Below are positions 10,501-44,637 of a stretch of 64,000 nucleotides of DNA, one piece after another (the first letter of the stretch is position 1; every line of letters starts with the position of its first letter). A model generated the notes under the pieces. The model made no database searches, was not told the origin of the DNA, and was given only the letters and a program-made list of their open reading frames with translations. The position numbers and the translations under genes are program-made. The stretch is from Membranipora membranacea. Taxonomy: Eukaryota > Bryozoa > Gymnolaemata > Cheilostomatida > Membraniporidae. The stretch lies in contig OU612067.1 of NCBI GenBank assembly GCA_914767715.1, forward strand, positions 30,848,162 to 30,912,161, read 5' to 3'.

Positions 10501-11073
10501 TGACAGCAGAAGTGTGTTAAATGGCACTAAAAATTAGAAACATAATGATGATATACAATACAGACTATTAATTAGACAACAAAGTTGTTTTTAAATATTG
10601 GCCAATACCAAAATATTACCTATTATCATTAGCTTATATGCTAAACAAAGTGTGACTCTACAATGATGCAAGGCTGTTATATCTACATTGAAAAAGTTTG
10701 GATTTAGGGACGTTTATTGTAGTAAAACATGTATGTGAATCATTAGAACTCTGCTAGCAGTCTAGAGACAGCTTTTTTTTGCCAAAACCATTACTATAAG
10801 CATTATTGAATTCTCAATTATAAATAGTGCATTAATTTTCAAAAAGCTATGATAATATATGGAAAATAACACTACCTGCGCACCTGAGAACAGTATGACT
10901 GCAAGCTGTGTAGAGCCGATTATGTTAGTCTGTGATGGGTCCAAACCTAACAGTTCTGGGTAGACATCAGCGAACACTCCAACACTACTCAAGGCATAGC
11001 CGGGCACAAAGATGTTATTGATTGCAATAGTCACCAGAACAATCCAAGAGTATGCTCCATCTTTCTCCATCAT
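7563..11073 (-). CDS. Monocarboxylate transporter-like MFS permease (SLC16 family, 451 aa)
   Basis: Exons 11073-10884, 10526-10383 and 8584-7563 give 1356 nt in frame. The family moves lactate, pyruvate and related monocarboxylates, or thyroid hormone or aromatic amino acids in some members, across the plasma membrane with 12 TM helices. Seen here: the TM1 signature in the form EKDGAYSWIVLV, a GCRVLSAIGCP loop after TM2, and YFEKRKSAAYAALGVGGGVGM between TM4 and TM5, which fits the family pattern YF.KRR..A.G.A.AG. A hydrophilic intracellular loop, six further hydrophobic segments and an acidic/Asn-rich C-terminal tail follow. Length is usual for MCTs. The donor at TCAG|GTGCGC (10884) was preferred over a later GT because only it keeps frame and the TM2 motif. 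A minus-strand donor at 12848 and an acceptor just upstream of the ATG suggest a non-coding 5' exon. Substrate cannot be inferred. Confidence 0.88.
8883..8938. repeat. Short tandem duplication (about 27 bp x2)
   Basis: The phrase cttgtgctgtactgggtcc-aatagtg is followed directly by a near copy (cttgtgctatacagggtcc-gatagtg). It lies in the second intron of the transporter gene and has no coding content. Confidence 0.7.
9504..9749. repeat. Tandem duplication, unit about 123 bp x2
   Basis: Two copies starting at 9504 and 9627 share the blocks aatttgtctg-acacaacaatttaaaaaag, gacagtttttggatgt and catgccaagatat with scattered substitutions. It lies in the second intron of the transporter gene. The next stretch (9751-9906) is another divergent pair containing tctgcagcttt and caaatt..ctgaa..ttacct, so the locus has duplicated more than once. 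Confidence 0.8.
9751..9906. repeat. Divergent tandem pair, unit about 105 bp
   Basis: The segments around 9751-9800 and 9855-9906 both run ctgcagctttt..tgcaaattgtctgaa.gtttacct.gaaaatattttt with substitutions. A copy of the catgccaagat phrase from the neighbouring repeat lies between them. Non-coding, intronic. Confidence 0.6.
10166..10252. repeat. Pentanucleotide microsatellite (CACGT/TACGT)n
   Basis: About 17 units of a 5-mer, first mainly CACGT then mainly TACGT with a few variants, ending in a CACGT pair. It lies in the transporter's second intron, close to the 3' splice side of exon 2 on the minus strand. The change of unit type along the tract shows staged expansion. Confidence 0.92.
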
Positions 11074-14609: not shown

Positions 14610-14788
14610 TCATTCTTCAGATACTTTGGAAGTTGTCCTCTTTCTGACGAGTAATACCATGAGACATAGGACAGAGATTAGAGAGGTGGCAGATAGAATA
14701 CTCAGCCATACAAGTAGCGTAGTGCTACCCAATGAGGCAGCGCCATCAACATCGCTGCTCAATATATTAGACTGTATATCGACAGATC
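14610..14788 (-). CDS. Exon 51 of the 2744-aa gene: transmembrane helix and short cytoplasmic tail
   Basis: Acceptor TTTGTCTTTGTAG|GA at 14789-14790. The hydrophobic run LLVWLSILSATSLISVLCLM (about residues 2707-2733 including flanks) is followed by RKRTTSKVSEE and the stop. Positive residues on the C-terminal side fit type I topology. The tail is 11 residues. Confidence 0.9.
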
Positions 14789-17700
14789 CTACAAAGACAA
14801 ATGTAAGCTGTAATTGACATGCTTGCTGACAAATTTTGGACTTAGGGTCAGAGATGACATCGGCAATGATGTATTTTATGCAACAACGCAAATGCATTTT
14901 GGTTCTCAATCACAGCTCAATATGTATAAACACAGAGTCAACATATTGGATCAACCGCCTGTGTACAGAGAAAAGACAACTACATGAATACCAGAATGAA
15001 TAAAAATACTATCAATGTTCGGCTGTGACTGGTCTACTTACTTTTTTTCCTGCCTTGTTGTGAAGTTGTCTCCTCTTGCTTGGTCTGATCACAGCAGTTT
15101 GTACATTGACATGTGGCTGAGGTAGAGTTAGACATACATAAATAGCTACCGTATGTATTCATGCAGACCTCTGTCTCTAAACATGGATTAGTATCGCATT
15201 CGTCCTCATCTAAAACATAAAGAAATTATTTCATTTCATACTGTATGGCCAGAAATGCGATAGTTTGTGTTGATGAATCGGATTCTATTATGTAAAGTAA
15301 TGATTCCTTTCCGCAAAGTGCCCACTGTAAACATAGAGAATCACACTTATACAGGGGTCAATACATCACAGCAATCTGAGAGTTTTGAGACCCGAATGTG
15401 CGTGTTGCCGCTGCTTTTCAGTTCAGTGCAAATAATGCTTCAAATGATAAATGTCGTTATTTCAACAAATAAATGACAAAATATCTGTCAAATCATGACG
15501 GAGAATATGAAGAAGTATTTTTTAACGATGTTATATATAGATAGAGAATATAATAAATTACATACCGACACAGCTGTGTCTGTTAGGAGATAGTGTGAGA
15601 CCAGTAGGACAGCCACACTTATATGATCCTACAGTGTTCTCACATGAGTAATCACATCCACCATTCATCCTACTACTGCACTCATCAATATCTATAACAA
15701 GATATGATTATTACAAAGAGAGCTTGCAGAGAGCAGGATGTATATGTACATGAGACTGTGCCTGGGACACACTGGGCAGGTCGGCAATGCCAATGTTTGA
15801 AACTAAGAGATTGTTGAGGATTTTGATAGAAATTGTCTTTTCATATTGAGTGGCAGGATAACTTCTCACCATTTAATAACCGCAACATACATAAATTGAG
15901 GCAAAAGCTTATATAAAAGACCATACAGCCGGTCGGTTTGGTTTTTACCACCCGCACTGCCAGATTATATCATCAGAGGAAACCTCATGACTGATCATGT
16001 CACATGATAGGTCGAGTCACCTGACAGGTCACATCACCTGACAGGTCATTTCACATGACAGACTGCTCCACCTACCTTCACATGATTTTCCGTCAGTAGA
16101 TTGTATGTATCCCTGTTCACATCCACAGTAATACCTCTCAGATTGCTCCAGTGTTACACATGAATGCTGACACCCTCCATTTCCGAACACACAGGAATCT
16201 AACAACATATGAAGGGAGTTTTATTAGCACTTTGATGTATGTCATACAATATACTTTGATACCGATGGTCAGATTGAAAGAAAATGAAGTGTTCACTTCA
16301 TGGTACACATACAAATCAACCTTTTTCAAAGAAACTTGCGCTAATCCACGCACTTAGCTTTGTTTCCTTAAAGATGACGGTGGCCCTTACCTGTTTCACT
16401 GATGTTGAAGAGTTGAGGCTGAGCTGGAACTCCATTATTTCCTTTCATGTCAGTTGTTGTACCAGGTTCAGTGGTGATTATCTCCCCATTCTCAGTTGGA
16501 GAAGGTGTCGTACCTAGATGTCCAGGATCATCTGGTGCGGTATAACCAGATCCTTGTGGTGTAGGCCCTGTCCAGCCTGGAGGCCACGTTTGACCTGCAG
16601 GGTACCCAGGCATGCCAGATACTTGGTTATCTGGAGTGGGATTACCCGGACCACCAGGCCCAGCGGTGCTCACACCAGGCCCAGCGGTGGTCACACCAGG
16701 CTCCTTGGTCTCTATTGTGCCGGTGGTAGTTTTTTGATCACCGTAAGAGGTGAGTGAAAACGTCAAAGTTGTCAGAACGTTCTGGATGAGAAAAAAGGAA
16801 ATGCCTCCATCAATTAATGTAACACAATGCATTGAATTATGAGTCTAGTTCGGAGATTGCTTAAAAAAAAGGGGGGTTCACAGAGTAAGACAGTCCCAAA
16901 TAATCAAATAGTCAAATATTTTAAAGAAGACAGCTTCCGTTTATCATATGGCCTTTCAAGCTGAGCTTGAACTTTGTGTACAAGTCAATACGGTATTGGA
17001 ATAGTATAACTCACATTTCCGATGAGAACAGTGAGCGTTTTACCATCATCACCCGGGGTAGGTGTGTATGTACCCTGGTAGGTGATCACACAGATATCAC
17101 CTACTACCTGTGTCCTTATACGAGTGAACTGTGAGGTGATGTCCATATAACCCACCATTATCTGTAGGGGACAAAAAAACCTACTTAAGGAGAGATACGC
17201 TCCACAAAAAGGTCAAGAAGGAGTAGAAATCGAAAAACTTGATGTCAACTGGGATACCATAATTGTGAGGTTGGGTCACGCTTGCCAGCGACCATAACAG
17301 TTACCTAAGCTAAAGTACTTGATTTTAGCAATGGCCCTGACCACCAATTAGTCTCAAAACCCTCAAAGATATGTGGTGATGTGTGATGATATTTTGCCGA
17401 TGATATCATTCAGAATAACTTACTATAATTGATTCATTGCAGGATTGTTGGTTGACAGTGAACCTGAGAGTCGTCTCCTCTCCTGGACTAGCAGACAGAT
17501 CACTACCTGGAGGGAGGGATGGGCTGTCATCCTGAGGTGTTATACTCAGAGATCCTAGTGGAGTGAGAACTGGAGGCTCTGATATACTGAGTACATATGT
17601 ACCTGATAATATATAACAGTTCTTAGATTGAAGATAGCGACAATGGGGCGTGACTTAATACAGCCTAATACTCAGAGCTTGTCAACGCAGACCAAGTATA

Positions 17701-20700
17701 CAATCATGGCTCTGTGCGTTGAATTCAATTTGTCAACTCAAATCGTTCAAGTTTCGGCGATGCTTTAGTAGATGTATATTTCCATCTTTGTCAGCATTTT
17801 TCAGTTTTGGTTCAGGTTTTAATTTGCCCAACTAGGTTATATTTTTTTGTGAGATCCGTAGACTGAAAAACCGGGCTCACATCTAGTACGGTTTCATTCA
17901 TAGGCTGGATTTCCAACAGCTTAAAGGTAAGCAAAAAGAAAATTACTGACCAATGACTTCATAAGTGCCGTCAGGTTTGATATAAGCCTTCTGTATTATT
18001 GTGACTTGTTCAGGGTCGAGCTGGAAGGTTGTCGTCTGAGCAGTGACATTGACATTCTCATTGGCATACTCATCAAACCTGGTTCCGTTCCTGGTGTCAG
18101 ATGTAAAGTCAGCGACAGGCTCACCATCGACAAGCACCTGTTGGTGAGATTAAAATTAGTTTGGTCATACACTTAAGTCATTATGACTTACTCCAGGGCA
18201 CAAATAAACTATAACGGTAAGAAATCCCAAGAACGCTAGGTTAGGTATTTTGCAAATCATATGCAGAATCACTTACAGCTTTTTTTGGTCGGTACTTTGC
18301 TAGATCCACGAACAAGGTAAGACTGATTTGTTGTTGGCAACCACATTGTTTTATTTGTCAGCATTTTATAAGCCCCATAGAAATTTACTACATGGCAAAG
18401 CACACAATAACAGTGTTACGTGCTTTGCCTGTTGATAGTTGATAGATAGTTGCCAGTGCCAGCAACAATTGACATTTCGAATTGAGACTTACACTTTACA
18501 CAAATACCTAAAACTAGTCATAGCTCTATTTTTCATTGGGAACTCAAACTTACCGTATAGTTCCTATCCATGAATGCTTCAAACTCAAACAGAGCCGTAT
18601 ATGTCTGTCCGCGGAAAAGAAGAGTTCTTGCGTCATATGGTATACCATCGATCAGGAATGCTGTACCTACAAACACCATGAGGTTTTGAGATGCCTACAT
18701 AAAATTTTTTATTGGCTTCCAAAGGTACAAAAGACAGCAGACAGTACAGAGATAGATAGCTCATTAACCAAATGCGCTTGTTGAGTCATCGATCTATCCA
18801 TACCTATAACATCCAGGGTGAACCGGCCGGTCACGTGATCACCATGACCAGACCACACACACTGATACTCAGCTACATCAGTACGGTGTAAGTTATTAAT
18901 AGTTAGCACTGTTGTAGCGATTCCATTTGTATCATCATAAGAGCTGGTGGCATTGTATCGGCCAGGCAAGTCAAAAGGAGATTCCAGTATATCACTAGTG
19001 GAGATTGTTCTCAGCTGGCGGTTGTCTGTGAGTGACCTCCTTCTCCAACTCCAAAAACCTGACAAAAACAGAAAGTGTAATTGGTGGAAGTTAAGAAATT
19101 TCAAGGTGGTGTGGATAAGCGTATAATTAGAGCTACTACTGAGATCGATAAGTTGAAAACTAGTAGTTCAAAAGAGAATATTGTCTCCGTCTGAAAATTT
19201 CAAAGAAGCTGTGTTGAGTACTTTGATTTTGTAGGCATGTTGATGTAAGGGGTGACAAACGCCATAGCAATTTGATTATTAAACATTCTAATTATACATA
19301 ATGTTGCTTGACATCAGTTCATGCAGACATTTTTCAACAAGTTTCTTTAAGCCCCAACTTTTCCTTTACATTAAAATCGATCAGACGAGAGATTGAAGTA
19401 GAATGCTTACCAGATCGGCTATTAGGAGAGAATGGAGCTCTACATTGAGATCTGACTTCAGCTCCCTCGACTCCGACTATCAGCTTACCGATCGGTCTCC
19501 TCACTATCTGTGTCAGCACTATCAACAAAATCAATCAGATAGCATGATGAAAGACAACACATGCCAGCAAGACAAACTGGCTATGGGTTTAAATATTAAA
19601 ACAACGCTCTACCAATTTAAAATATTTCAAGTCAAGAGAGAAGATTAGGCTTTGCTGCTGGTGGTAACAGTAGTATGAGCCCCAAGGTTGTTGCCCTGAC
19701 CGATAAGAGATGAGAATCTCCAATGTCCAGTTATTATAATTAAATTGTGTTTTTCATCTAAAATCACAACTCCACCAAATAATTTTACTTTGATTAAGCA
19801 CCCATGACTTGCGGGTTGCATGTCTCAAAAAATGTGGCGAAGCTTTCATCAAGTATATGAATATCCCATGATGCAAATTTCTGCAATTTCAACGTAACTG
19901 CTGCATTCTGGGAAATTTTTGTAATATGCTCTGTTAGATAACAAGAGGGAGAGGAGTTAGTGGGAAGAGGAAGGAGAGGAAGTGGGAACTAAGGAGAGTC
20001 ACTACAGATAAAACAGAACTCAACTTCTCACTGAGGCACCGGGTAAAGCAAAAATTCAATACCTGTGTCATTCTGAACTCCAGTGATCGCTGAAAATTTA
20101 ATACAACATTATTCAAGACCTAGGAGATTTGATAAATGTCAGATGTGGTCTACACACATAATAATATATCAGGCGAATGAGCTGTAAAATAAAACATCTA
20201 ACAATCATCAACACAGTATCTTGAGAGTGTTTAGTAATTAAAAGATTTGTCTTACGTGGCCTAAGTTGTATATGAGTAGTGGTAACTCCTCCATCGGTTA
20301 TGACCAGGAATCTGTATGTGCTCACGTCCTCAAAGTTATCTGGGATTGTGAGAAAAACAGACGCCTCGATCGTGCCATCCTGGTCTCTCTGTTAATATAA
20401 TCGATGATGAAATAAAGGACCGCCTTGTCATTTTGTTTGATCACAGAATCATAAGCATGCATCTTTGATGGGATGTTTTCATTGCACCAAACTTCATATT
20501 TCGGACAACCCGCACAGAATAATCTGTTAAATTTTATAATTTTTGACGAGCGATTGATGACTTACCCTTTGCACGTATCTGAATCCAGGTACTCGGTCAA
20601 TTGCACTTATGTTTCGCTCTGTACCACCTTGCAGAATGTTAGTAAATATGAGGCTTGGAGTAGACTGAGAACCATTCACTGTACAAACAATCTCCATCTC

Positions 20701-23700
20701 GTCCCCAACCTTCAGATTAGCTGAGTTCCTTAGAGAACAGTCTGCACCTTGCAGTGCTGCAAATCAGAGATGATACTTTTGATATAATTATTGACCAGAA
20801 CATGGTGTCCAGTTGCAACCTTAGATATTTGTTACCACTGTATAAACATATATACACTGACAGCAGCCCAAGCTCATCTGCACACAAGTGGTCGGATCAG
20901 CATTCTTACTCTGATCTTGGTTATTGACGTTCTAACTTTACAATTGACGCTGAGAAGACAATATTTTGTTTGATACGAATTATCACTCAACGTTTTGTTC
21001 TAAAGTATGAACCAACGGCAACATCAATAAAAATAGAGCACTTTTCTTACCAGCAGGCTGAGCACCGACAGTGAAGGTATAGAAGGCAGACCATCTATCT
21101 CCTGAGGAAGCAGTAAACCTGATGGATTGTGGGATATCTGTACGGCCATTTACGAGCTGAAGAGTGTATGTAACTGTACCATCAGCTTGTGTCTGCAATC
21201 AAATTAAAATTAATAATCAAAAGATTTTCGCACTTAGGCAGATAAAATGTAACCAGTAATTATGTGGCAGTATTATTATCTTCCAGATCGTAGGTAAACT
21301 CTCGTTACAAGAAGAGATTGGGTTTGATATAATTGTAGAACTTTAGTGCCGCTTCATTTTCCAACAAAATTAAATCAGCTCCATCCAAATTAGAAGTTAG
21401 CCTACCACCTCACCTGTGCCTGAGATGCAATAAATCCATCTATATTTAGACCAGGTGATATGACAGTACCATCTGATAGAGTCCATATAAAGGTGTCAGC
21501 TGCAGGAGAACCACCTGTCAGTGTGGCTGTCAGTGTCACTGATGTGTAGTCAGGTGACTCTGTTACTGAGCCTGTCAATGTACCAGGTACGGCTGCAGCT
21601 ACAAATAGAAACAGCTGATAAGAATCACCAACTTAACAGTGAATTATCCAGTACTAGCAAAAGACGTTTGACACCTAGACTTTCGAATTCACAATTCTCT
21701 GTCTATCCTAAGAAAACCTCAGTGGTCGGTCATTGAGGATAAGGACTCGAAACAATGTAGGTTCCATGCGTGAACTGAAACACCAATCGTTTACACGGGG
21801 GCTTCCGTTAGTTGAGTTGGCAGCTCCTGTCTTAATATTTAAAGCTGGCACTGGGTTACAGTCGACGGTCGTCCAATAGTTCAATGAATATTTTATGTTA
21901 TTATGCAGTATGTCAGTGTAGCCATTATGGGACACAGCAGTATCATTAATCAACAATATCTAAAACCTATATTTGCAATTAACTGCAAAGCTTTTGGAGA
22001 TCTCTAATTTAGATTCAAAGGTTTTCTCCACCTGTTAGCGGTATGGGTATTATGACTTATCCCTCCCTGACAGCTTAGATATCATATTAATTTAATTTCA
22101 TTGCAGCAGCAAAAGCAATATTATGACTTGTCTCAACTAAACATATCACTTACGCTGCTCTAGTTGTATGAAGGTAGTAGTGACCCCTCCAGGGAAGCTC
22201 ACTAAGAATCTGTAAGTGCTAACGTCCTCAAAGTCAACTGGGATTGTGAAAAACAGGGACGCCTCAATCGTGTCGTCCTGATTTCTCTGTAAATGTATGT
22301 ATATTGTATTGTTATCAATACTTGATAAAATTCATTGTTGTTTTGCTCTGTGATGCCAAAAAAAATATAAAATAAATTATAAATAAAAATATTAAAAAGT
22401 ATCTATAAAAACGTCTAACTTATAAGATGGAATTAAGCAGCCGAGCACACTCTGTTCGGAAACAGTTTTTACGAATGTTTACTCGCTGCTTGGGAATACA
22501 GAATCTACCAGAGTGTAGTCTCACTAGCTCGATTGGTGGATCGAGGCTAGTATAGGTACGCAGACATTTACTTTTGAAACGTTCCTGGTACAGCTCATCG
22601 AGGCTCTTACATTTGAGCTTTTTATTACTGAGTCTGTAGGCTGATTTTATAACATGGTTCAGCTCATTGCGGTTTTTGACTGACATATGGCCGTGGATAA
22701 TACTGAGGTGAAAGGCAAGCACACTTTCTATAATAATGACTCATAGGCTAGCCGAATACAATAGACTACCATATAAGGGACAACTATCTTAATTTTATTC
22801 TATAACACAATTGTTACAAAGAGAAACAGAACGTTTAATCTGCTCAATACAAGTATTTTTTGTGTTGGCGATTGATGACTTACCCTTTGTACATATCTGA
22901 ATCCAGGTACTCGGTCAATTGCACTTATGTTTCGCTCTGTACCACCTTGCATAATGTTGGTATATATCAGCTCCGAAGTAGACTGAGAACCATTCACTTT
23001 ACAGACAATCTCCATCTCGTCCCCAACCTTCAGATTAGCAGAGTTCCTCAGAGAACATTCTACACTTGGTGGTGCTGTAAATCAAACAGTGATAGACATC
23101 TTAAATAACATGTTCAGTTCTTTTGTGTGTTACTGTTTATAACAAGCTCATGATCTTTGAGGAGCATGTTGGCGTCTCTAACACCTAGCTAACACCTAGC
23201 TAACAAAATACTTCTTATAAGCTTCCCTGTGGATATAGATGGTACTGTCCTGTTGTAGTTTGATATTTCGACACGTTTGATATCCCTCTTGAGTTTCAAT
23301 TCTGCTGTTTACTGATATCTGACCCTATGTGCTGTACCACAAGATTTTCTCAATTGGCAGGCATATCAATAGGACGATCCATACAACAACCTATTATACC
23401 GTTGTTTCTTTCCCTCTTTTCAGCCTCGAAACCCTACTTTTTACTCAGAAAGATTTTCACCATAATGAAGCAGTGGTGAAAGTTTTTATTTTGAATTTAA
23501 ATATATACCAAATAATACAACTACAACAAATTAACAATTTACCTGGAGGCTTAGCAGCCACAGCGAATGTGTAGAAAGCATTCCATTCATATCCTGACGA
23601 GACTGTGAACCAGATGGATTGTGGGATATCTGTGCGGCCATTTACTAGCTGAAGAGTGTAGGTTGAGGTTCCATCAGCATTAATCTGCAAGATACAGATT

Positions 23701-26700
23701 ATTGTGGCATCAAATTACTGTCATCGTTTATGATCAAGAAGGAACAACTTAAGACTATCTAAAGATACTGAACTTAATCTCAGTTCCCCTTATCCCCTTT
23801 ATCTACAAGGGGAGGCTGAATCATCTACCCTCTTCCTGGTGAAACAACAGCCAATACTGAATTCAATCATAGCCTCAATTTATATATGCCAAAATCAGTA
23901 CATCACTGATTAGACAAACAAGGTGTCAAACAGCTCACCTGCCCATCAGAAGCTACGAGACCATTGACACTCTGACCAGGTGATATGACAGTACCATCTG
24001 ATAGTGTCCATATAAAGGTGTCAGCTGTAGGAGAACCACCTGTCAGTGTGGCTGTCAGTGTCACTGATGTGTAGTCAGGTGACTCTGTTACTGAGCCTGT
24101 CAATGTACCAGGTACGGCTGTAGGAATAGAAATAAAAATGGCATACTTAGCACTATCGTATTGTCTATTTCAGAGTTTTCAGATACACAAAAGTAACTTT
24201 TGTTTACATCCAAAGATAAAGTAAAAGCTTGTATCATCATAATTGCCAAATTCTGATCATTTTCCATATGCCTCCCCCCCCCCCCCTTATTACCATGAAC
24301 TGCCAGCAAGTATGTAGTTACATCACTTCCATCCAGAAACATTTCAATAATAACATAAATATCACTCTTTGTCCGGAACATCTTTACCGCTATAACTTTA
24401 ACTCACCAGGTCTCCCATCTACTGTAAAAGTATAGAAAGCATTCCATCTATCTCCTGATGAAGCAGTAAACCTGATGGATTGTGGGATATCTGTACGGCC
24501 GTTTGATAGCTGAAGCGTGTATGTTACTGTACCATCAGAGTTTGTCTACAAGGGTATGATTAATCATTATTATCTGGGTTGCCTTCTTTTCAACTCCAAG
24601 GGTGCAACTCTAAAATATCACAAGGCATTGGTTTTTGCTTGCCTCATTGATGATTTGGCTAATGCTGCCATCATGATGACCAAATCAAGCTATTCATAAC
24701 CGTCTGAATCCACAGTAAACACAAGCACCAACCTGCGCCTGAGATGCCATATATCCATCTATATTTAGACCAGGTGATATGACAGTACCATCTGATAGAG
24801 TCCATGTAAAGGTGTCAGCTGTAGGAGAACCACCTGTCAGTGTGGCTGTCAGTGTCACTGATGTGTAGTCAGGTGACTCTGTTACCGAGCCTGTCAATGT
24901 ACCCGGTACTGCTGCAGCTAAAACAAAATACATGATATACCCATCACTGATATAAAGCATTTACAGTGTGATAAGGTATAACACAACAATTATTATTTAC
25001 AACAATAGTTTTCATCAGGAATCTTTTCGAAAGTCCAATTTTTGCCTTACCATCCACTGTAAAAGTATAGAAAGCATTCCACCTGTCTCCAGATGAAGCA
25101 GTAAACCTGATGGATTGTGGGATATCCGTACGTCCGTTTACTAGTTGAAGTGTGTATGATACTGTACCATCAGAGTTTATCTGCAAGGTAAACATGAATC
25201 ATTATAGCACATGCCGCTCTCATTTGATTCAAAGTAACCACTCATATACTCATAAAATACTGAGTTAAATGCCATCTCCCACAAGACACATATAAAAAAA
25301 ATATCCGAGAAACCTGTACATCTCCTGGTACGATATATCTGCGTATTATAGAATACTGAGCGTGATGTCATGTAAGCTTCATTGTGGCAGCTCAACTTCA
25401 ATTGCATAGTTAAATCTAAGAAATCTGTACATCTCATGGTAAAACGAACAACGAGATAAATCACTCACCTGTGCCTGAGATGCCATAAATCCATCTATAT
25501 TTAGACCAGGTGATATGACAGTATCATCTGATAGAGTCCATATAAAGGTGCCAGCTGTAGGAGAACCACCTGTCAGTGTGGCTGTCAGCGTCACTGATGT
25601 GTAGTCAGGTGACTCTGTTACTGAGCCTGCCAATGTACCGGGTACGGCTGCAGATAGAAAATAGAAACTGCATTCTCAGCACTGGTGAAGTGTGCAGGAA
25701 AGTTGGACGCAACCGTTGACCATATAATAGCAATCCTAAAGGAATGAGCAAAGGAAATAAAATAACTTGCCCTAGGTCACCTGTGATTGAACAACTTGTT
25801 TCTAAAGTTTGGAAACTCAAGGTCAAGAAAGGGTGTAGAGTAAGTTGTCTTCCCTTGGGTTGTAGACACGGAAACATCTTTATTTCATAATAATTATTTT
25901 GAGTATTATAGCTGACTGAAAAAACATGGCTGCAGAAATTTCAGTGTCAAAAACCCGTTATTACTGAACAGCAGCTCTAAACTTGGCAATATATCTATAG
26001 TAGTTGTCATTCATTGTTCACCATTACCTTATGTATTCCGACTAAAATGCTAATATTATTATACTCATATATCCTTAGAATTAATTACTAGCACCACATG
26101 TCGGTAATTAGTGACAATGATATAAGCTGCACTTTAAAATATAGCTATGATGAAATAGTAAAGGTCACCTTTTATCTTCTTAAACAGGTATGTTTTGTGG
26201 AGTTTGATATGATCACAGACTACACAATAACTGACCACAATTATTCCCGCTAGGTCCATCAATGCTAAAACTTACCAGGTCTGGTGTCTACAGTAAATGT
26301 GTAGAAAGCATTCCATCTATCTCCTGATGAAGCAGAAAACCTGATGGATTGTGGGATATCTGTACGACCGTTTACCAGCTGCAGTGTGTATGATACTGTA
26401 CCATCAGAGTTTGTCTACAAGGGAAAGATCAGTCATCATAGCCTGCATTGCCGGTGATTTGATATTATTCCTTAACATCGGAAGAAACCTTATTTAATCC
26501 AGCTCCCCTTTGACCTGTTGACCTGCATAGATTTTTGATCATCTCTTCCCAAACTATCAATAAGTAGAATCACTCTCAAGCCATCGATTTTTGCCTCATT
26601 GAAGACCTGAGTCAGCTCTTGCCTTGAACAGAATCAGTCTGATCATAACCATCTGAATACACAGTAAATACAATCACTCACCTGTGCCTGAGATGCCATA

Positions 26701-29700
26701 TATCCATCTATATTTAGACCAGGTGATATGACAGTACCATCTGATAGAGTCCATATAAAGGTGTCAGCTGTAGGAGAACCACCTGTCAGTGTGGCTGTCA
26801 GTGTCACTGATGTGTAGTCAGGTGACTCTGTTACTGAGCCTGTCAGTGTACCGGGTACTGCTGTAAACAGAAATAGTGATGGTACACTTAGTGCTATCAT
26901 ATTTTCTACTTCAGAAATTTATAGTCAATTACACAGAAATAAATTTTTTTTACATCCGAAGATGAGATAGAAGCTTGTGTCATAATAATTGCCTAATCCT
27001 GACCGTTTTCCATATGCCTCCCCTCTACCCCCTTTATCACCATCAACTACCAGCAAGTATGTAGGTACGACATCCATGAACGTTCCAATAATTATATAAA
27101 CAATATCACTCTTTGTCCTGATGATCTTTCAGCTAAAACTAAATCTTACCAGGTCTCCCATCTACTGTAAAAGTGTAGAAAGCGTTCCATCTGTCACCTG
27201 ATGAAGCTGTAAATCTGATAGATTGTGGGATATCTGTACGGCCATTTGATAGCTGAAGCGTGTATGTTACTGTACCATCAGAATTTATCTACAAGGGAAT
27301 GATTAACCATAATAGCATACATGCTGATGATTTGATACAAGTCCATAACATCGGATGAAACTTAATTTTTTCCCCAACTTCCCTCCACACATGTTGAATT
27401 TTGCCAGTATCAGGATCTGAGAAATTTGTTCATCTCCACCCAAACAAACAATGAGTAGAATCACTCACAAGAGATTGGATCTTGCTTCATGGTAGATTTG
27501 AGTTGACTTATGTTACCTTATTAAAAGACACTCAGTGTGTTCATAACCGTCCTAATCCACAAAAAACACATCCCCTACCTGTGCCTGAGATGCCATATAT
27601 CCATCTATATTTAGACCAGGTGACATGACAGTACCATCTGATAGAGTCCATATAAAGGTGTCAGCTGTAGGAGAACCACCTGTCAGTGTGGCCGTCAGTG
27701 TCACTGATGTGTAGTCAGGTGACTCTGTCACTGAGCCTGTCAGTGTACCCGGTACTGCTAAAGCTAAAATAAAAACCGTGATCTTTACAACATATTTTTT
27801 ATGAAAATTACAAAGCTCTATTGCACACATCATCCTAAAGAACATTCATCGAAACCTTGGTTGACCGACTGGTAGGTTGCAATACCCACACTTTATCACT
27901 CTCATAATTTTCTAGAATTTAAGTCAGATCAGGTCAATTGAAACATAATACGATGTCCGACCGGATTTTTAAGGGAATCGAGGCTCCTTTGTCTACTGTT
28001 CGACCTCTTGGGTTATAAAATAAATAAAAATTAAGATCTCACCAGCAGGTATATTGAAGGTGTAGGAGGTATTCCACTCCTCCCCAGACATAGCGGAGAA
28101 GGTTATCGCCTGAGGGTCGTAACCTCTGCCTCCCACCAGAGTCAGCGTGTACGTGTGCGTACCATCTGCATTGAGCTGCAAAAAAATAAGTTTGTTTAGA
28201 TACGCCCCTTAGCTGGTCTTTTTGCTTACAATATAATTCAACATTTACAACCTCTATCATAATCTAACTATTTGACTTTTCATTTCAACTGCCAAACTTT
28301 CGTAAAGCATAACTGATTCAAAATCAGTAAATCTGTAACCATAAAAGAACAATTAATTGTGCCTAAAAGGTATACTTAGGTACCTAACAACAACACCACA
28401 CTGAACTCACTACTTTAGGAGATGAGATATAGCCTCCATCTGTAGATCGGTTCCCAGGTGTGATATTCAGACCATTAGGTAACGCCCAGTAGAACTGATC
28501 AGCTGCCGGCGTACCGTCCACTAGAGTGATTATAAGTATCAGATCACTGTCGACTTCTGATGTGCTGCCGGTAACACTACCTGGCACTGTAGTCATAAAT
28601 AAAACTTTAATTGATTGTGAGAGATAAATAATGTCAAAACTTTGTCTAAATCCACTGCTGAGGCAAAAATGCTAACAGTGGTCCTCCATAAGGTGCTATT
28701 ACCAGCCCTCTCAAGTGTCTGCCCCAGTAACCAACCCAGGGTAGCATAAAAGATGCTACAGATGATTTATCAATAAAAGGTTTCAGCAAGGCTACCACGA
28801 ACATAACCATTAACTCCAAACATTTTTAACGAATTTTTTTGCAATTGAAGAAATAGCTGACACTTGCGGTATTTTATTGTTTTCAAAGCTTAGCTTCCAA
28901 TATCCGAACAAATCTATCTTATAAGTGCAGCTTTTATCAGAAGACAATGGAAACTGCAGTATTGAGCTTCAAAATGAGGAGAAAAATTGCAGAATGGCTT
29001 GTAGGGAACACTATTTATAAACTAGTAATACACACCTAGGCTGGCAGGTATTGTCCACGATTTCCTGGAGTACCACAAGATGGTACCATTGTCGGCAACA
29101 GATGAGGCGAAGAGAGTGAACCTTCTCTCCATACCAGAAACAGCGGTTACAGTAAGAGTGGTACTTCTGTTAGTGTTAGAATTAGTCTCCTACAAGAACA
29201 TACACTACATAACCGTGATATAAATTTTAACCAGTGGAATCACAGTTCAACTACTCTGTGATGATGTAAAATTTAGTTTTCATGACAGGTGATCATTGAT
29301 GTCAATAATACTTTGTGATATCCCTATTACAAAAAAACTACACACGTTCCAAACTCTCCAACCTCCCACCCTCTCTGCTTCTTGTTTGTCTTCTGTTATC
29401 CCATTGGAGTTGCTCTCTACTTTGTTAAGGCTACATAACTCCAAAAAGCACCACTTCTATCTTGTGCAATTCACACAACTTTAACCACCCTCTTACCAAA
29501 GCCCAGAAATTTACCTTTGCATATGTAAGCATATCAGACTATGATCAACAATTCTTAAGATACTGGGTATAGCAATGAGTACTCAGGGACTTACCACTGC
29601 ACTAGATCTGCCCTCTCCAGCTGGGTGTGTTATCTTTGTCCCGTTATCTAAATGATCATTCCATGAGAATGTGTTAGGAGGAGGGACGCCTCCTATCACC

Positions 29701-32700
29701 TGACCATTAATCATGGTAACACCTGATTCTGTAATCATCTCTCCTTTTACTGTGCCAGGGACTACAGAAAACATTAACAAATAGAATAAGATTCAGTGAG
29801 ATTGCCAGGACAATCTCACTGTTTCAAATTTGTTTGGTTGTTCTAGTAAGGAATAGGTACTCAATGTGTTGGCTCCAATTGGCTGGCTGGTCAATTCTCT
29901 ACCAAACAGACAATCGATTCAGAGCCAACACATTGACTGGGATACGGTGATAAGATAAAAGGTGAGAGCATGGGAGTGACAGCTTTAGGTAAAGAATAAG
30001 ACGACAACTTAACAACTGGAATCTATATGTCAATGCCTCCCTGATGCCTCCCTGATCCCACAGTTTTACCAACTTGTGCCCTCATCACACTTGCACTGTG
30101 AACATAATATAGTTTATGCTGGAAGTTGATCCAGAGAGAATGAGAGGGGGAACCAGAGACATCGTCTATTAGGGGATTGGGGGAATAACAAGAGACAGAT
30201 TAACATATTATAGGATTGACAGACTGGAATACCAGAAAAATAAATCAGTACCTGTATCAAACTGCATTGGAGCTGAAAATTTAAAGCAGTCAAATCAAAA
30301 CATCTCTAAACAGCAATATTTTCTGTTTATACTATAAAAGACAGTGGGTCAATTATTTTCAGAATGTTATTGCCTCACCCAAATACAAGGCCTATTAGCA
30401 TAACTGTAGGTCAATATTGCTTATTTTGAAGGATCTGCTTTCAAACCTCTCCGAAACAAAATTGAGCACATTGAGCAGCTTGGCAAAGGCTTGAAAGCTT
30501 TATTGTGCACATTTTTTCGGCCTAGACCACAATATTCACTGTGATAATTTTAACCCGAAAAGGCTGTCTCACCCCCATATTCATACATACTTAGACTTGC
30601 AGGTATAGTCCAGCTCCTCTCAGAAGACCATAGGACATTGTCATTATCATCTTCTGATGTCACACTCAGAGTGAATCTCCTGTCAATCCCTGATACTGAG
30701 GGGACTGTCAGGGTGGTAGTTGGATTAGATCTAACATTAGTCACCTGAAATGAGAAGGGAACTATTTGTAACGATAAGATTAACTACAAATAAGACCAAC
30801 CCATGTACAAGATCCCAAGCGGAGTCAAAATATCAGTTTATTTCTGTAATTTGGAGTTACCTTCCCAAAGAACTTTATGTTTGTTATTTGTGTATAAATA
30901 TATAATGCATGCATCTGGGTATATGTTTTAAATCGATCTAATAAAGTGAGGAGGACTTCAACAGAGCACTGCACAGTGTTACTCACCACAGCACTAGACC
31001 AGCCCTGCCCAGCAGGGTAGGAGATGAATGTCCCATTATCTAACTGTTCTGTCCACATGTAACTAGTCGGAGGAGGTAACCCACCAACAACCTCAGCAGT
31101 TATAACTGACATATCTGTTTCAGTGACGAGGTCTCCCTCCACGACGCCTGGTTCTGCGATATAAACAAAATAATATAGCAGCCAGTGCACATACGACTAC
31201 GTGGTATTATTGTTCAAACGTTACACACCTTGAGACATCAGCACCAGATGCAAGTTTCGCAGCGCTCAAACAGTGAATCCAGGGGAGCTTTTTATCATAA
31301 AACGTTCTTAGTAACAGGAGTACACTAATTACAAGATTCCTAGATTACATGCGTCGAATCTAGCAACAGAATCAGTCACTTGTGTAGAAGACTGACTTTT
31401 CATCACCAAAGCCATATCTATCTATACCCTTCAGACATTGAAGCCTTGGAACAACAAAAAGGAGGTTACTGATTATTTTTATAACCGACATACCTGATGG
31501 GTAGGAGTAGATGGACACAGGTACTTCTCGACTTAGTGTATAACCGTTACTCTGGATAAACGTAAGCTTGAATATCCTCGTAGTGACACCATTAGACCAC
31601 TGATCAACTGTGATACCGTCCAACACTGCAATAAACATCTGCGGGTCTGCAGGACTCAGCTGAAACAATAGAAGAGTTGTATTGTGAATAGCTTCAGCAC
31701 TTTAAGCTGTAAGAGAATGGTTGAGTAGTCAAATTTCACACAAACAAGCCCATGAGCAATCACATTATACAGATGAGACTAGGTATAATATTAGCCCGTT
31801 GTATACTTTATATCATATTTCTATCAGCTCACATATTTTCTCGGCAGGAAACGTTTTATTTGTCAACATTGACGCAATAAAGGTTCATACATACATACTT
31901 ATAATATAGGGAAATGTCTGTATTAAATTATTTGCTTTGCCAAGCAGATCGAAGTTGGAATTTTTTCTGACTCATGATAATACATCGCAACCAATCTGAC
32001 ACAGCGTTCAGTTCAAACTAAGTCCGGGTTACGGTTTGCTTGGTGTTCGTTTATCAACCATCGCCAATCTAGAATGAGTTAGGTGGTTGCCACTAATATA
32101 ATGTTAAGTTCATAATCATAAGTTTGATTACTCACTGTATGGTTGGCAGTATATGGTGCCTGAGTACTGGGACTGTTTAGTCTCGACTGCTGATCAAACT
32201 CCCAGAATACATCAGTAAGTGGATCAGACACATCTGATATAACACATCTTACAGTGCCTGAATTGTCTCCCTCGCTCACAGAGAAACTACAGTTGAGTGA
32301 AGGCCTCACAATCGATTCTAAAAAATGAGATTTTGGTTTTCAATTAAGCGTCGCCATTCCATGTTTTTGCCCTTCTTTCAATCTCAGTAGATCTTCACCA
32401 TTGGACAATTTTGAAAAAATGTAAAAGCTGTAAATTTGCATAATTATTATGATCAAAGCAAGATGCTAATTTTACTACCACTGCATCCTATGGCGTTGAT
32501 TTTGTCCTATGCAGATTACAAAATAAAAAATAAAAATGGGTGTATAAGGCAATAATTTGATGACCGTGTTGATACTACAACATTTTCCTTACCGACATGA
32601 AATCTAGCGTTGACGAAATTGCCAGTGATTTTAGGATTGCTGACGTGGAACAATGTCTGATCATACGCAGGGTCAGCAGTCCAGAGACGGTTGATGAGCT

Positions 32701-35700
32701 CGTACACAGTTCTGACTCTCTGAAGACCTCGAGTGGATCCAGTCACTCTATTAATGTCTACACCGATGACATCAAAATCTGATGTCACATCGACATCTTT
32801 AAGATATTGCTGTAAATAAACAGACCACACAACTAAGGGCTATATGCTACTTTTCTCAACCATTAGATGCTGTTTTATGTTGACAGTAAGAATGAAATAA
32901 AACACAGCATCACATCAACAGTTCTGTTATACAATTAGTAAAATAGAAAATGGTGGGAAATCTAGAAGTTAAGTTGCAGTATGTTGGAGTTGCCTACCTT
33001 TTATCAATGAGAAAATAACTTTCAATATATGAGTTGCATATTTGGATGGGTGAGAGCAGGCAGGGTGAGATGTATGACACACACTGCCCACTCTGTGACA
33101 CACTGTGACACTCGGTGACACTCTGACACTCTGTGACACTTCAGACTTACTCTGTATGGTAACTCATTAACATGCCGCCCTCCAATAGATTGAAATGTCA
33201 GACTGTAGTCCTTTCCCTCACGAAAGAAGAGATTACGGGGTGGTGCATTCATTGACGATGCAACTTGGACATTCCCTGACTCTAGATCCTGAGCAATGAT
33301 CTCGTAATACTGATTTGACTCTGTATAGAAAAAAAGCCAGTATAGAAGCTTTTGATCTTTTTTCCGAAATTGATGAAGATTGAAAATGATAAAGTCTTCT
33401 TAGCAAAAGATGAAAAGCAAAAAGATGTACTTAATTTTTGTGAGAATCACAAAAATAATGAATTTTCTTGCAAAATGAACAGTTGCATTTTAATCTTAAA
33501 ACAAGCAAAAACCCAATACCTATTTCTCTAACTCGGAAGTTTTGTCAGTAACGCTTTTCAGAACATAGGAAATAATAGTACCAAGGTAACAGATTGTAAG
33601 TTTCATTAAGATAGGATAACTCACGCTGTACTTGTAGCCTGTTTATATCAGAGACGAGTCCATACTCAGATTTATAGGTCAGCTGATATAGTCCAGGATC
33701 TACTGTCTGAGCATCTCTTACTGTCAGAGTAACCTGTCAATATACAGTGAGAGGATACTGAGACCCAGTGAGGCACTGAGAAGCATAAAGAGTCACGTGG
33801 TTCTCATGAGAAATGACACCACAGGCCAGAGTTAAGGCAGTACAAACAAATACCCCTTGGCTCAACTGGAACTTTTAACAGCCCAATTCAAAGTTAGAAG
33901 TGAAGTTGGAGAGGATATTCTCATCTACGCTGAATGGCAACAAGGCTTGAATATCATCAATGATAGAGTCAAAAACATCGAGCAAAGAGACTAGAGATGC
34001 AGTTGTAGTCTGGGCATTACATTGACATGAGTGTTCTTGTCATCTTTTCACCCTCTTACTCATGAAAACAATAAGCAGAAGTTTTACCTGCATGACATAC
34101 AGCATGCCTCTCAGCCTAGGCTCAGTAGCTACCAGGCTATACCGTGTTGTGTTAGTGAAAAGGTCTGTCATTATCAGAGTTGCATTCCCTTCAGCGACCA
34201 TAATCGGTAATCCCGGAGGCTGAAACAGATTAGATTAGTATGTAGAGCAAAAAGAAAAACTTGAGTGGATTAAATGTTTGGCTGTAATCACATAATAAAC
34301 GGCACAACAAATGTATATCCCACAAAGCTGAGGAAGTGCTGTTGGGAGAATTCTTCGGAATCAGTTAATACAGCGGCTGGGATTTTCAGATGAAGAATTT
34401 ACAATACTGATATACGTAAAATGGCCCTGCCGAAGTAGAATATTGCACACTCAACATACAGCAAGATTTGTCACAATACTGAAACCACTTCTGAATAAAA
34501 TCAGAATTTTACTTTTTCAAATTCAATAAATGTAGCAAAGAACAGCTGAGGTGATGCGTGAGGTTCAGATTGTGATGCAGTTGCAACAACAAAACATAAA
34601 TTCAAGCGGTGGGGCTGTGATTTTTGTGCTAGGTGTTTGATCAAACTGAGTATGTATGACGATATAACATTACCCTTTGTTTCGTTATGTGAAAAAATAC
34701 ACCGTGACCTCACTACCTGATTTCAACTACCTGATTCTGATGTGAGCCAGATTTGTTCCGCTCAAATGGCAACTTGTGTACCGGTAAAATTAGTGGTATT
34801 ACGTGGATTAGCGAATTCGATAACAAGTAGTTTATTGTTTTAGGTAAACCGCTTGGATGGTAATCTTGTACTTCATGTTGCGGAACAAACACGGGTGGTC
34901 AGATTTGATCTTAGGAAACAATAAGCTGTTGGGATTAGGGTAACTACCTACTGTTAATCATCAACCTGTTGATTATAAGCTGAAATTCTAATCTTGATTC
35001 AGTCTCTGTAAAACGATCATACTGTGCATTTCATTTGATACACATCTGACTTGTAGTAATTTCATAATATAATAGAAAAATTATTCAAAAATGAAAACCA
35101 TTCAGGAATTATGAGTCACTAATTTTAAGAAATCTCCAAGATTTTGATCTGTTTTGTAGTGCAGGTCAGAAGATTAGTTTCGTAGATCAGTTTATAAAAT
35201 CGGTCAAATATAGTTCAATTAACGGAGAGGGCAAAAAGTTTAATGCTAAGAAAACCATGAAAGCTTGGCAGGACCAAAAAAGCTGTAAGGTAAAGCCCAC
35301 CTGCTGTTTCCAGAGTTGTAGGACTTGATGAGAGGTGATGTTAGTAGCGTATACAGTCCAGAGTAGACTAGCAGTCTGCCCGTCAAACACAGTAATATTC
35401 TGCTGAGCTATCACTGCATTACTGACACGACAATCCTCATCAACCGAGCCATCTCCGTCATCATCTATACGGAGAAAAATAGACAACTGCCTAAACACTT
35501 TGCAATGTACAGAGATTGATGTTGGTTACAAAAATTGAGTAGAAAGGAGCTAGATTCATGAGTTAGTTGAATTGTATGTATGGTTGTTTTATTTTTTTCC
35601 ATGTACTAGGTCATATTGGACCACCCTATTTAACGGGCCCGAAAAAGCTTGATGAGAGGAAAACGCCATGCTTTTCTTCGCTTTTTTGTTTCTGATTATT

Positions 35701-38700
35701 CAATCCTCCCACCGAATTTAGATCGGAAATAGCGAAAACGCAATAGAAAACTGGAAATACCTGTGTCATCACAGAATTCTTCATCTATCCGTGCATCACA
35801 ATCATTGTCCAGCCCATCAGTAGGTTGAGCCAGGCTCTGTGTACAGGCAGGGTTTATCACCTGTAGGAGAGAGTCAGTGAAATTAACTATGAGCAACTGA
35901 TAAAGGCAAAATAATTTTGGCTACCTGCTGTTCGGGTATCGATTAGATTTAGCACGGGTACATCCTACTTCAATTCCAGTGCCCGGTACCTAAAAAATTA
36001 ATCAGAGGTGAAGCTCTCAGGGTGGCTACGTCAATAAACTTACAAAAAAAACCGAATTGACATCCACGCGAGCCAGGTTTACCTACTATCAGCCAGTTTA
36101 TATTACCTCAGTAGGTACAACTCAGAATGTGATCACAACACCGCTAAAATTACTCTCAAGTGTTGTAGGAAATAAATTAATCATTTAATTAGTTAATTTC
36201 CTGTCATGACTTTTAAAAAGCCTCAGTTAATGTGTGCTAAGTCTAAGATTCTTAGCGAATCATCCATTCTTGCTGGTTAGTAAGAAACAGAACATTGGGC
36301 TTTCCTCCTGAAGAGGGATGCAAGGTGCCCTAGATCCTATAATCATATTAGAAAATTAGAATGCATCCTAGATGTGAGGCCATAAGAGGTCTCCTGAACT
36401 GTGTTTCAGTAAGTTGCCAAAACTGAAACTGGCACTAATCGGCCATTGGCAGTGACTCTTTGATCTGAGCCATTAGACTGAGAAGCCATCATCCATTCTA
36501 CAGACCTGTAGTCTCATACCGCCCATATACGCGTATGACTCTCTGTCTCCAGCTCCGTATATAATACACATAAAGCTGGTGTCTTCTCTGATAGTACCAA
36601 TAGTGTGAGTTCCTGAGGTGATATTCAGATAGGCTGTGACCAGGGGCTCTCGACCGCCCGCATTTGTGTTAGGGATGTCTACCCAGTTAGAGTGAGGGAA
36701 AGCTGTATTCACATTTTCACCATTTATGACGACCTAAGTAAATAAAAAGTCAGTTTTTGATTTACTGTGATGCTGCTTTTTACACATCAATACCAATGGT
36801 CCACAGGGGAGCAGACAGAACAGTATGACCAAGTTGAAAATATAAATGGGATATGTTTAGTGACCATTTTCCAAATCCACATATATTCTAGTTGTGAATT
36901 CCGATATATGTTGTGTTTATTAAGGGTTATAAGATTTACAGGAGGCAGAATCAAATTAAGTAAGCTAACATGATGCAACTTATATAACTTAGATTATCTT
37001 TCTACATAAACTAACAAAAATACAATGATTCAGGGGGGCAATGAGTTGAAGTCGTAGGAGTCAATGGCCTGTCGAAACTATACAGGTGTCCACCAAAAAC
37101 ATTCTTCTCTCTTGGCAACAGAAGATAGACACGGACTTAGCTACGGAGCTTTAGAAATGGAAGATATTCTAAATATGAAGTCCTCTAGAACATTGCAATT
37201 ATACGGCTCATCAAAATCATTTGTCATCATAATCAGGTAATGTGTAACTGATAAACTATTAGTATATTATATTATATTGTTTGCTGAGTAATTTTTTGGG
37301 ATCATTGAAAACACATTATAGAGGGATCGCTCACACCAATGCTCAGTACACTAACCCAATTTTGGTTATCATAGCAAACGGGGACCATTTGTATGTATTT
37401 TGTATGATAGGAAAAGAGACGCAAGTCGCCCAGCAGTGTATGATATTGGAAAGAGACGATACTCTAAATTTGGTCTATGATTAAATTAAACGGAACTTTC
37501 ATCACTCTCTATCTAAGCACCTCATAATAGACCAGCAAAACTCACACACCATCAAAATAACTGCACAGACTCAAACTTGTACCAGTATTACATTTTAATT
37601 CTTCTATTAGAATTATTTTATAATCACACTTCCATTGGTGCACCTGCGCTAAGAATAATATTCATATAATGTAACATATAACTTACCGAGTCTAGTTTAT
37701 CCTTCCTGATGACGATGGTAAGATAGTTCTGATAAGTGCTCGCTCCGGAATATTTAGCTGTAGCCAGTGTGTAGCTCTGTGCATACTGCTCTTCTGGTAT
37801 TATCAAGGTCATCGCAGGGTCAGCCTAATAAAATAAAGGAAGGTAATAACAGTAAGCTACTGAGTACTAAAACTTTATAAATGCGGCAAGTTATTTCACA
37901 TCTTAGCTTGCCTGGAAAGCTGAAAACAAAACTATTGGCCAGTGATCACAACCATATATCTCTTTAAACTTAATTTGCATAGCTTTCAATCGATGAGAAT
38001 ATTTTTCAATTCAGCCATCGAGAAAAAAAGGGTCACTTTTCAACTGAATCAAATTAATTGTGTGCTTGACTCTTTTATTTCTAACATCACCTGTAACTCA
38101 GTAATGAATCCCCCCAGGGTATTTTATTACACTCTCTGATTTCTCACCTGTATTTGGGAGTGTGCTGACAGCTGACTCATAACCACAGTAGCCACCATGA
38201 TGGGTTTAGTAGCCGTCACATAGTGTGGACTACTAGTGCTCACTTTAAGTTGTATATTTCCTCCAGCATTACAAACATACGGCTTTCCATCGACCTGTCA
38301 GATATAGAGATATAGAGAGAGTGAATATATACCAAAAATCTCACAATAGACTTGTAAGTGAATTGGGGTGTTTCAAAAAATAATCTGCTTCAGATTTACA
38401 AGTGATCACATTCTTTTAAGTCACCAACCACTTATGAACCATATCAAACATATAACCTCTGTGATCAATCTATCCATTGTCAAGTCACTATCTATGGCCA
38501 CCAATAAGTAAATCATGATTCAGATGTAAGCAGCATCTAGATGTATCATTTTGTATGTCACCTTCATATACCCCACAATGCAATTCTCCATATTCAGGAT
38601 ATTGATACCATAGATATGTTGACCTGATCTCTCCAGGCTAAAGTTGCATTGTGGGATTTTTCTGCATATGCTGTACAATAAACTGAAGAGATTTGGGCAA

Positions 38701-44560: not shown

Positions 44561-44632
44561 GCCTCTATAGCTCAGTGGTAGAGCACTGCTCTCGTAAAGC
44601 AGGGGTCGTGGGTTCAAACCCCACTGGGGGCT
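44561..44632 (+). tRNA. tRNA-Thr (anticodon CGT)
   Basis: Cloverleaf read by eye. The acceptor stem GCCTCTA pairs with TGGGGGC (two G-U pairs). D arm GCTC-AGTGGTA-GAGC. Anticodon arm CTGCT-CTCGTAA-AGCAG with anticodon CGT at 44593-44595, decoding ACG. T arm GTGGG-TTCAAAC-CCCAC. The discriminator is T. No intron. A run of six T begins at 44632, a proper Pol III terminator. A-box-like (TAGCTCAGTGG) and B-box (GGTTCAAACCC) promoter elements are intact, so the gene should be functional. Confidence 0.96.
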
Positions 44633-44637
44633 TTTTT
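44633..44637 (+). terminator. RNA polymerase III T-run terminator of tRNA-Thr
   Basis: A six-T run starts at the discriminator position (44632) directly after the acceptor stem. Confidence 0.9.

Follow-up and report, generated by a model that had tools for sequence, protein, structure and literature searches.

The contig OU612067.1 of the cheilostome bryozoan Membranipora membranacea (assembly GCA_914767715.1) carries, within a stretch of 64,000 nucleotides (nt) at positions 30,848,162 to 30,912,161, which as a whole we call the window, a minus-strand gene in which a two-exon, immunoglobulin (Ig)-like module occurs seven times, and in which likeness at the DNA level is limited to one exon of each module. 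The array is real; it is a lineage-specific expansion, and its exon-limited homogeneity is an uncommon pattern. We lean, with little more than even confidence, toward an explanation in which old tandem duplications of the module were followed by exchange or conversion focused on its first exon, giving a receptor with a longer stalk. Old duplications through unequal exchange would have created the copies. Because the first exon (X, 179 nt) offers a longer uninterrupted stretch of homology than the second (Y, 130–142 nt), later exchanges and conversions would fall there, so that X would stay near-identical while the Y exons and the introns would drift, each under its own selection.

An earlier, sequence-only reading of this DNA had placed seven two-exon modules with phases 1-0-1 between window positions 21051 and 28586, all within one gene, and the splice model bears this out. 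Those limits equal exactly the outer ends of the last and first array exons, the phases hold in 7/7 modules, and the array lies in a 50-exon minus-strand gene with one open frame. The array and the second, cysteine (Cys)-containing module type that accompanies it (first exon C, second exon D) comprise the following features, with the evidence for each in brackets:

28411..28586, minus: X1, first exon of module 1, 176 nt, divergent (splice model, exon comparison)
28043..28175, minus: Y1, second exon of module 1, 133 nt, divergent (splice model, exon comparison)
27579..27757, minus: X2, 179 nt (splice model, exon comparison, genome search)
27150..27288, minus: Y2, 139 nt (splice model, exon comparison, Y search)
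26861..27149, minus: intron Y2 to X3, full-length homologue of intron Y5 to X6 (blastn, alignment)
26682..26860, minus: X3, 179 nt, its likeness to X6 lost from exon nt 145 (splice model, exon comparison)
26276..26414, minus: Y3, 139 nt (splice model, exon comparison, Y search)
25469..25647, minus: X4, 179 nt (splice model, exon comparison, genome search)
25051..25180, minus: Y4, 130 nt (splice model, exon comparison, Y search)
24733..24911, minus: X5, 179 nt (splice model, exon comparison, genome search)
24407..24545, minus: Y5, 139 nt (splice model, exon comparison, Y search)
24118..24406, minus: intron Y5 to X6, partner of intron Y2 to X3 (blastn, alignment)
23939..24117, minus: X6, 179 nt, its initial 144 nt like the other copies, the rest diverged and ancestral-looking (PGQ...) (exon comparison, trees)
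23543..23684, minus: Y6, 142 nt (splice model, exon comparison, Y search)
22884..23074, minus: C1, first exon of the Cys-containing module that separates module 6 from module 7 (splice model)
22154..22286, minus: D1, second exon of C1D1 (splice model)
21414..21592, minus: X7, 179 nt (splice model, exon comparison, genome search)
21051..21192, minus: Y7, 142 nt (splice model, exon comparison, Y search)
20566..20756, minus: C2, copy of C1 (splice model)
20256..20388, minus: D2, copy of D1 (splice model)

The description of seven near-identical copies in tandem holds in part. Modules 2–7 are 81–97% identical in protein over 101 aligned residues in all 15/15 pairs; module 1 stands apart at 46–58% DNA identity. 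Modules 1–6 are contiguous; C1D1 (22154–23074) splits module 6 from module 7, after which comes C2D2 (20256–20756). Modules 2–7 are, with that one insertion, tandem repeats of more than 50 residues at a protein identity of at least 80%, and adjacent domains so alike have been described as unusual in large multidomain proteins (PMC8201768). Six first exons are indeed 179 nt long (X2–X7; X1 has 176), a figure that depends on the choice of acceptor, as an in-frame AG lies 6 nt further upstream in X2, X5, and X7. The segment encoding TESPDYTSVT is the same at 29/30 nt across X2–X7, X4 differing in the last nt. Such near-identity over long stretches of DNA is, however, a property of the first exons only; the second exons and the introns have diverged.

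This contrast between two exons of one module is the central observation. Synonymous divergence (dS) among copies 2, 3, 4, 5, and 7 is 0.04–0.11 in X versus 0.31–0.94 in Y; third-position columns vary at 8/59 in X versus 24/42 in Y (p 7.7e-6); and the distance at fourfold sites is 0.068 (0.020–0.126) versus 0.362 (0.244–0.471), with p 2e-4 when codons are swapped between exons. The CD module repeats the contrast, with a dS of 0.24 for C and 1.10 for D in a single pair. At the edges of X the likeness ends abruptly: ungapped identity 20–60 nt beyond them is down to 0.10–0.45 in 15/15 pairs upstream and 14/15 downstream, the exception being X3/X5 with 0.65 on the donor side, and when gaps are allowed, X2/X5 and X3/X5 remain similar over about the first 40 nt of the donor-side intron. 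Copies are therefore more alike in X than in neighboring stretches of the same age, which is one mark of concerted evolution by gene conversion.

The sequence-only reading had attributed the repeats to recent unequal crossing-over. Unequal crossing-over itself, as the origin of some of the copies, finds support in a block, X2-Y2-X3, that recurs together with its introns as X5-Y5-X6 and has its junction inside an X exon. Within the aligned block, X2 and X5 are identical at 172/179 sites and Y2 and Y5 at 129/139; the intron X2 to Y2 agrees with X5 to Y5 at 139/184 aligned sites with 109 gap columns. The introns Y2 to X3 and Y5 to X6 had been proposed as homologous from three shared words, which are present, and the two are homologous throughout their 289 nt (75.8% by blastn, E 6e-56), with 226/280 aligned sites the same.

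These same comparisons speak to age. Were recent crossing-over alone at work, the copies being alike as young duplicates of entire units, divergence in introns and second exons would be uniformly low, and it is not. The block intron Y2 to X3 differs from its partner at 54/280 sites (Jukes–Cantor distance 0.22), Y2–Y5 dS is 0.32, and Y dS across copies 2, 3, 4, 5, and 7 reaches the values given above. Among array intron pairs, blastn finds two near end-to-end matches (75.8%, and 68% for X2 to Y2 against X3 to Y3, the latter a point in favor of recency) and three pairs matching over 55–111 nt; the remaining pairs have no match at E ≤ 1e-3. The word "recent" is thus not supported, and we regard recent crossing-over by itself as very unlikely. 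The near-identity of X despite the age of the block instead calls for a second process confined to the first exon.

The block also preserves what resembles a crossover junction, in that likeness is lost inside an X exon from nt 145. X3 and X6 are identical at 139/143 sites over the first 143 nt and at 19/36 over the last 36 nt, the first tail difference falling at nt 145; against each of X2–X5 and X7, X6 has 2–7/143 differences in the first part versus 16–17/36 in the tail (p ≤ 1e-8). The X6 tail reads PGQ, as do its counterparts in another bryozoan, Watersipora, and in the paralogue L013, and the other five copies have a common derived tail. A putative exchange within an X exon explains this mosaic, with either X6 or X3 as the hybrid; the break is significant, yet could also be the product of crossover instead of conversion. 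X also seems to have changed little at synonymous sites within the block: its dS is 0.074 for X3–X6 (5′ part) and 0.108 for X2–X5, versus 0.22–0.32 for intron and Y. A Poisson check on these changes gives p 0.02 and 0.03, values that are rough because the expected counts, 9 and 11.6, were set by hand. Such low divergence suggests that homogenization of X probably continued after the block had been duplicated.

The contrast could also arise with no conversion at all if an RNA or DNA element in X, such as a splicing enhancer or a structure, froze its synonymous sites, an explanation that we consider possible but doubtful. Several results favor it and weigh against exon-focused exchange. In a run-based conversion test, no pair out of 15 stays significant once corrected (smallest p 0.0096), and GC content at third codon positions (GC3) is not raised in X (0.31, compared with 0.32 in Y and 0.42 in the rest of the gene). 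The X and Y trees are almost alike in topology, and what sets them apart is chiefly their length (0.125 for the 5′ part of X versus 0.67 for Y): in approximately unbiased (AU) tests, the Y tree is rejected by X only marginally (p 0.035) and not by its 5′ part (0.096), and the X tree is not rejected by Y (0.10). Lastly, the divergent X1 shares 6–8 of 13–16 fourfold sites with X2–X7, above chance, compared with only 2–5 of 12–15 between Y1 and the other Y exons; some constraint on X may therefore remain.

Constraint alone nonetheless meets difficulties of its own. The paralogue L013 shares just 3–5 of 17–19 fourfold sites with X2–X7, near chance. The last 36 nt of X6 have changed freely, although X2–X5 and X7 are almost uniform there. 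The CD module exhibits the same contrast with no detectable similarity to XY: a comparison of the two profiles is not significant (probability 0.2%), and we claim no common descent for the two module types. Nor is an overlapping frame available, as stops (2–7 per frame) interrupt all five remaining reading frames of X2–X7, which excludes an overlapping or antisense frame as the cause of X conservation. We place exon-focused exchange ahead of constraint, though not beyond doubt.

A partial precedent is found in mammals, where the gene pairs DDX19A/B, TUBG1/2, and BMP8A/B are described as mosaics in which some exons evolve in concert and others diverge (PMC2720389), and the array gene resembles them in this exon-wise mosaic. 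It differs from them in two respects. As far as that source describes them, the converted tracts of these pairs include introns, and two of the three show a significant rise in GC3, which often marks conversion (PMC2720389); in the array, by contrast, the likeness of X is confined to exons and GC3 shows no rise.

The array is embedded in a gene whose 50 exons (E2–F12) encode 2743 amino acids (aa) in a single open frame with a stop at the very end only, in a window of 37.8% GC. The splice model was curated by hand and is GT-AG by construction. No 5′-most exon with a start codon could be located for it; a candidate signal peptide at ~41518 failed to splice in a suitable frame and is not part of the model. 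The parts of the gene outside the array are:

14610..41405, minus: whole gene model, E2–F12 (hand-curated splice model; IgGFc_binding E 7.5e-46; homologue P0003)
35301..41405, minus: N-terminal IgGFc_binding region (E2–E8) and weak MopE-like metal-binding motif (E9–E10) (Pfam; Watersipora P0003)
30591..31153, minus: divergent related two-exon module E17, E18 (splice model, module alignment, search with E17-type exon)
29036..29761, minus: divergent related two-exon module E20, E21 (splice model, module alignment, search with E17-type exon)
17015..19518, minus: membrane-proximal V-set-like Ig domain F2–F3 and two-exon modules F4–F5 and F6–F7 (splice model, Pfam)
14610..16781, minus: Pro/Thr-rich F8, three EGF-like exons F9–F11, transmembrane segment and 11-residue tail (F12) (splice model, Pfam)

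In protein order, the IgGFc_binding region (PF17517; 157.2 bits against a cut-off of 25.6, E 7.5e-46, above the Pfam gathering score) is followed by the D-rich motif and by two-exon units E11–E16, E17–E18, and E20–E21; then come X1Y1–X6Y6, C1D1, X7Y7, C2D2, the V-set-like domain, further two-exon units, and the Pro/Thr-rich, EGF-like, transmembrane, and tail segments. The MopE-like match of the D-rich motif (E 0.0014) fell under the cut-off in one Pfam scan and went unreported in a scan of a longer segment, and the V-set-like domain reaches 24 bits where the cut-off is 26 (E 4.6e-5). The predicted product is a type I membrane receptor of the IgGFc_binding type, or a shed one: an RKKR stretch, presumably a furin-type motif, spans the F11/F12 junction (window 15042–14788) just before the membrane segment and makes ectodomain shedding possible. 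The intron between C1 and D1 contains a 106-aa open frame (22423–22740, minus) with no Pfam match at E ≤ 0.01.

The modules had been read as Cys-less and Ig-like, and the first of these claims is exact: there are zero cysteines, and hence no canonical B–F cysteine pair, in any of the seven XY modules. A core tryptophan, W37, is invariant in 7 aligned modules (five of them XY) and present also in X4 and X5. Scans of five XY and two E-type modules, 7 in all, give no match to an animal Pfam Ig model at E ≤ 5, and two bacterial Pfam Ig models give one weak match each. Searching PDB sequences with a module profile returns 13 weak matches, the best a beta-lactamase inhibitor (E 0.016), with a few Ig domains at E of at least 0.14. 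The Ig-like character is supported by a structure model, which predicts an Ig fold without canonical cysteines for a single homologous module; that this module is from Watersipora and not from the window counts against extending the model to the array, for which an Ig-type beta-sandwich without canonical cysteines is nevertheless the supported prediction.

The evidence for expansion comes from the same species. The best protein homologue is P0003, an uncharacterized protein of the cheilostome bryozoan Watersipora subatra (NCBI/UniRef, isoform X2), whose head is 62% identical over 95% of residues 1–576. It shares with the array gene the IgGFc_binding head, the D-rich motif, the module order (XY then CD), the V-set domain, and the EGFs. 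It differs in having a single module each of the E17, XY, and CD types, in that order, where the array gene has seven XY and two CD, and in stopping after the EGFs without the transmembrane segment that the array gene possesses. Given the single XY module of this homologue, the array is, on sequence comparison, a lineage-specific expansion of XY, the count being a difference between two species' proteins (7 vs. 1). Against it stands that the Watersipora number is provisional, being that of a single predicted isoform which could omit modules.

That caveat touches on a further possibility, that the modules constitute an alternative-splicing array from which phase-symmetric units (1 to 1) are included in variable number per transcript. 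Phase symmetry holds throughout the seven XY and the two CD modules, tandem in-frame AG acceptors are present, and the Watersipora entry is labeled as isoform X2. Phase-symmetric exons are, however, common among extracellular modules in general, and we think such an array unlikely.

Relatives of the module were sought in the whole genome of 339,339,785 bases, only the best candidates of each search being scored. A stretch of X2 returns 6 matches (E 2e-115 to 6e-60), 6/6 inside the array, a likeness well in excess of chance. The X3 protein returns 16 matches at E ≤ 1 (10 at E ≤ 0.01), 16/16 on contig C3, which carries the window; 7/16 are X1–X7 and 9/16 lie elsewhere on C3, the best of these 49% identical, at 18.8 Mb. 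Likewise on C3 are 9/9 matches to Y and 8/8 to the E17-type exon, and several relatives with E ≤ 0.01 are no more than ~170 kb away from the array. On the plus strand of the window, an Asn-rich coding stretch (1385–3270) bears an E17-type two-exon module (~1841–2009, 2935–3080), so that the module family is common to adjacent genes. A protein search with exons E17–D2 found none at E ≤ 0.001 among 7995 candidates scored (similar-length proteins only), and pattern scans of viral and genome contigs turned up no relative. The IgGFc_binding family is itself expanded genome-wide: nine contigs together carry 94 exon-level matches (E ≤ 0.01).

Two metagenome proteins in ENA bear on variation within the species. 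P0001 is a variant of X2: the exon differs at two residues and the intron flank upstream of it at one, and the flank on the downstream side is altered; P0002 is a variant of X5 with one difference. Both were assigned by their intron flanks, and they probably represent sequence variation within the species, apparently from other individuals. Neither fragment shows an extra module copy.

Elsewhere in the window lie a Major Facilitator Superfamily transporter gene (7566–11079, minus; E 3.3e-19 for 7566–8600, with no Pfam match for 10765–11079), a tRNA-Thr (CGT) gene (44560–44633, plus), a Tim17-family-like exon (52145–52372, plus; E 1.9e-5, below cut-off), and a direct repeat of ~243 nt, 86% identical (55308–55550 and 59334–59578). 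Elsewhere on the contig are a ~3 kb satellite with a 12-nt register (L028–L029, about C3:30705761–30708717) and a 433-nt direct repeat, 100% identical and 1.4 kb apart (L038, C3:30805623–30806055 and 30807065–30807497).

Function is the weakest step of the proposed mechanism. An IgGFc-type head may be held off the membrane by the stalk of Ig-like modules, and the 11-residue tail, together with that head and long stalk, suggests adhesion or capture, not direct signaling. At ~4 nm per Ig domain, some six added modules would lengthen the stalk by ~20–25 nm, and a repeated surface would favor reach or multivalent binding to a partner in mucus, on microbes, or on neighboring cells. The genes of the bacterial Periscope Proteins lack introns. 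These proteins, in which adjacent structured domains far exceed the usual <50% identity and are proposed to set the projection of a head (PMC8201768), resemble the array gene in this unusual identity; as portrayed there, their repeats are alike throughout, whereas in this animal gene the likeness is maintained in just one of the two exons of a module. Lengthening of a stalk in Periscope-like fashion would fit the array best. Mammalian FCGBP offers a parallel at the other end of the protein, with an N-terminal IgGFc-binding domain followed by a long tandem-repeat array; its repeats are of the Cys-rich vWD-C8-TIL type and the protein is secreted (PMC9354016), in contrast to the Cys-less XY modules. 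No vWD, C8, or TIL Pfam domain was found, at the thresholds used, in the parts scanned whole, namely E2–E10, E11–E21, F2–F7, F9–F12, and single XY-type and CD modules.

Copy number had been suggested to vary between individuals, as in recognition receptors, and a receptor for recognition or allorecognition under diversifying selection, polymorphic in copy number between colonies, merits consideration. Bryozoans are colonial and historecognition is reported in the phylum (PMC12018476), the related modules fall on one chromosome with several nearby, and the two ENA fragments carry variants of X2 and X5. The Alr proteins of Hydractinia, polymorphic single-pass membrane proteins of the Ig superfamily encoded by a gene cluster in a colonial animal (PMC11067881), are comparable in being single-pass, Ig-type, and surrounded by clustered relatives in a colonial host; the likeness is one of description, and no IgGFc head is mentioned in the passages describing them. 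Yet the modules are homogenized and not diversified, nonsynonymous divergence (dN) in Y is well below dS in copies 2–7, and both ENA fragments match an existing copy, so that we hold this role to be quite unlikely. A more far-reaching idea, and a very improbable one, is that X acts as a self-maintaining recombination unit that would vary stalk length between colonies in colony or microbe recognition, with polymorphic copy number, which would make the gene an animal equivalent of the Periscope Proteins.

The restriction of DNA likeness to one exon per module sets exon-limited conversion against nucleotide constraint in a natural test that is unusually clean, and for bryozoans the gene itself is a concrete candidate for a recognition or adhesion protein of variable length.

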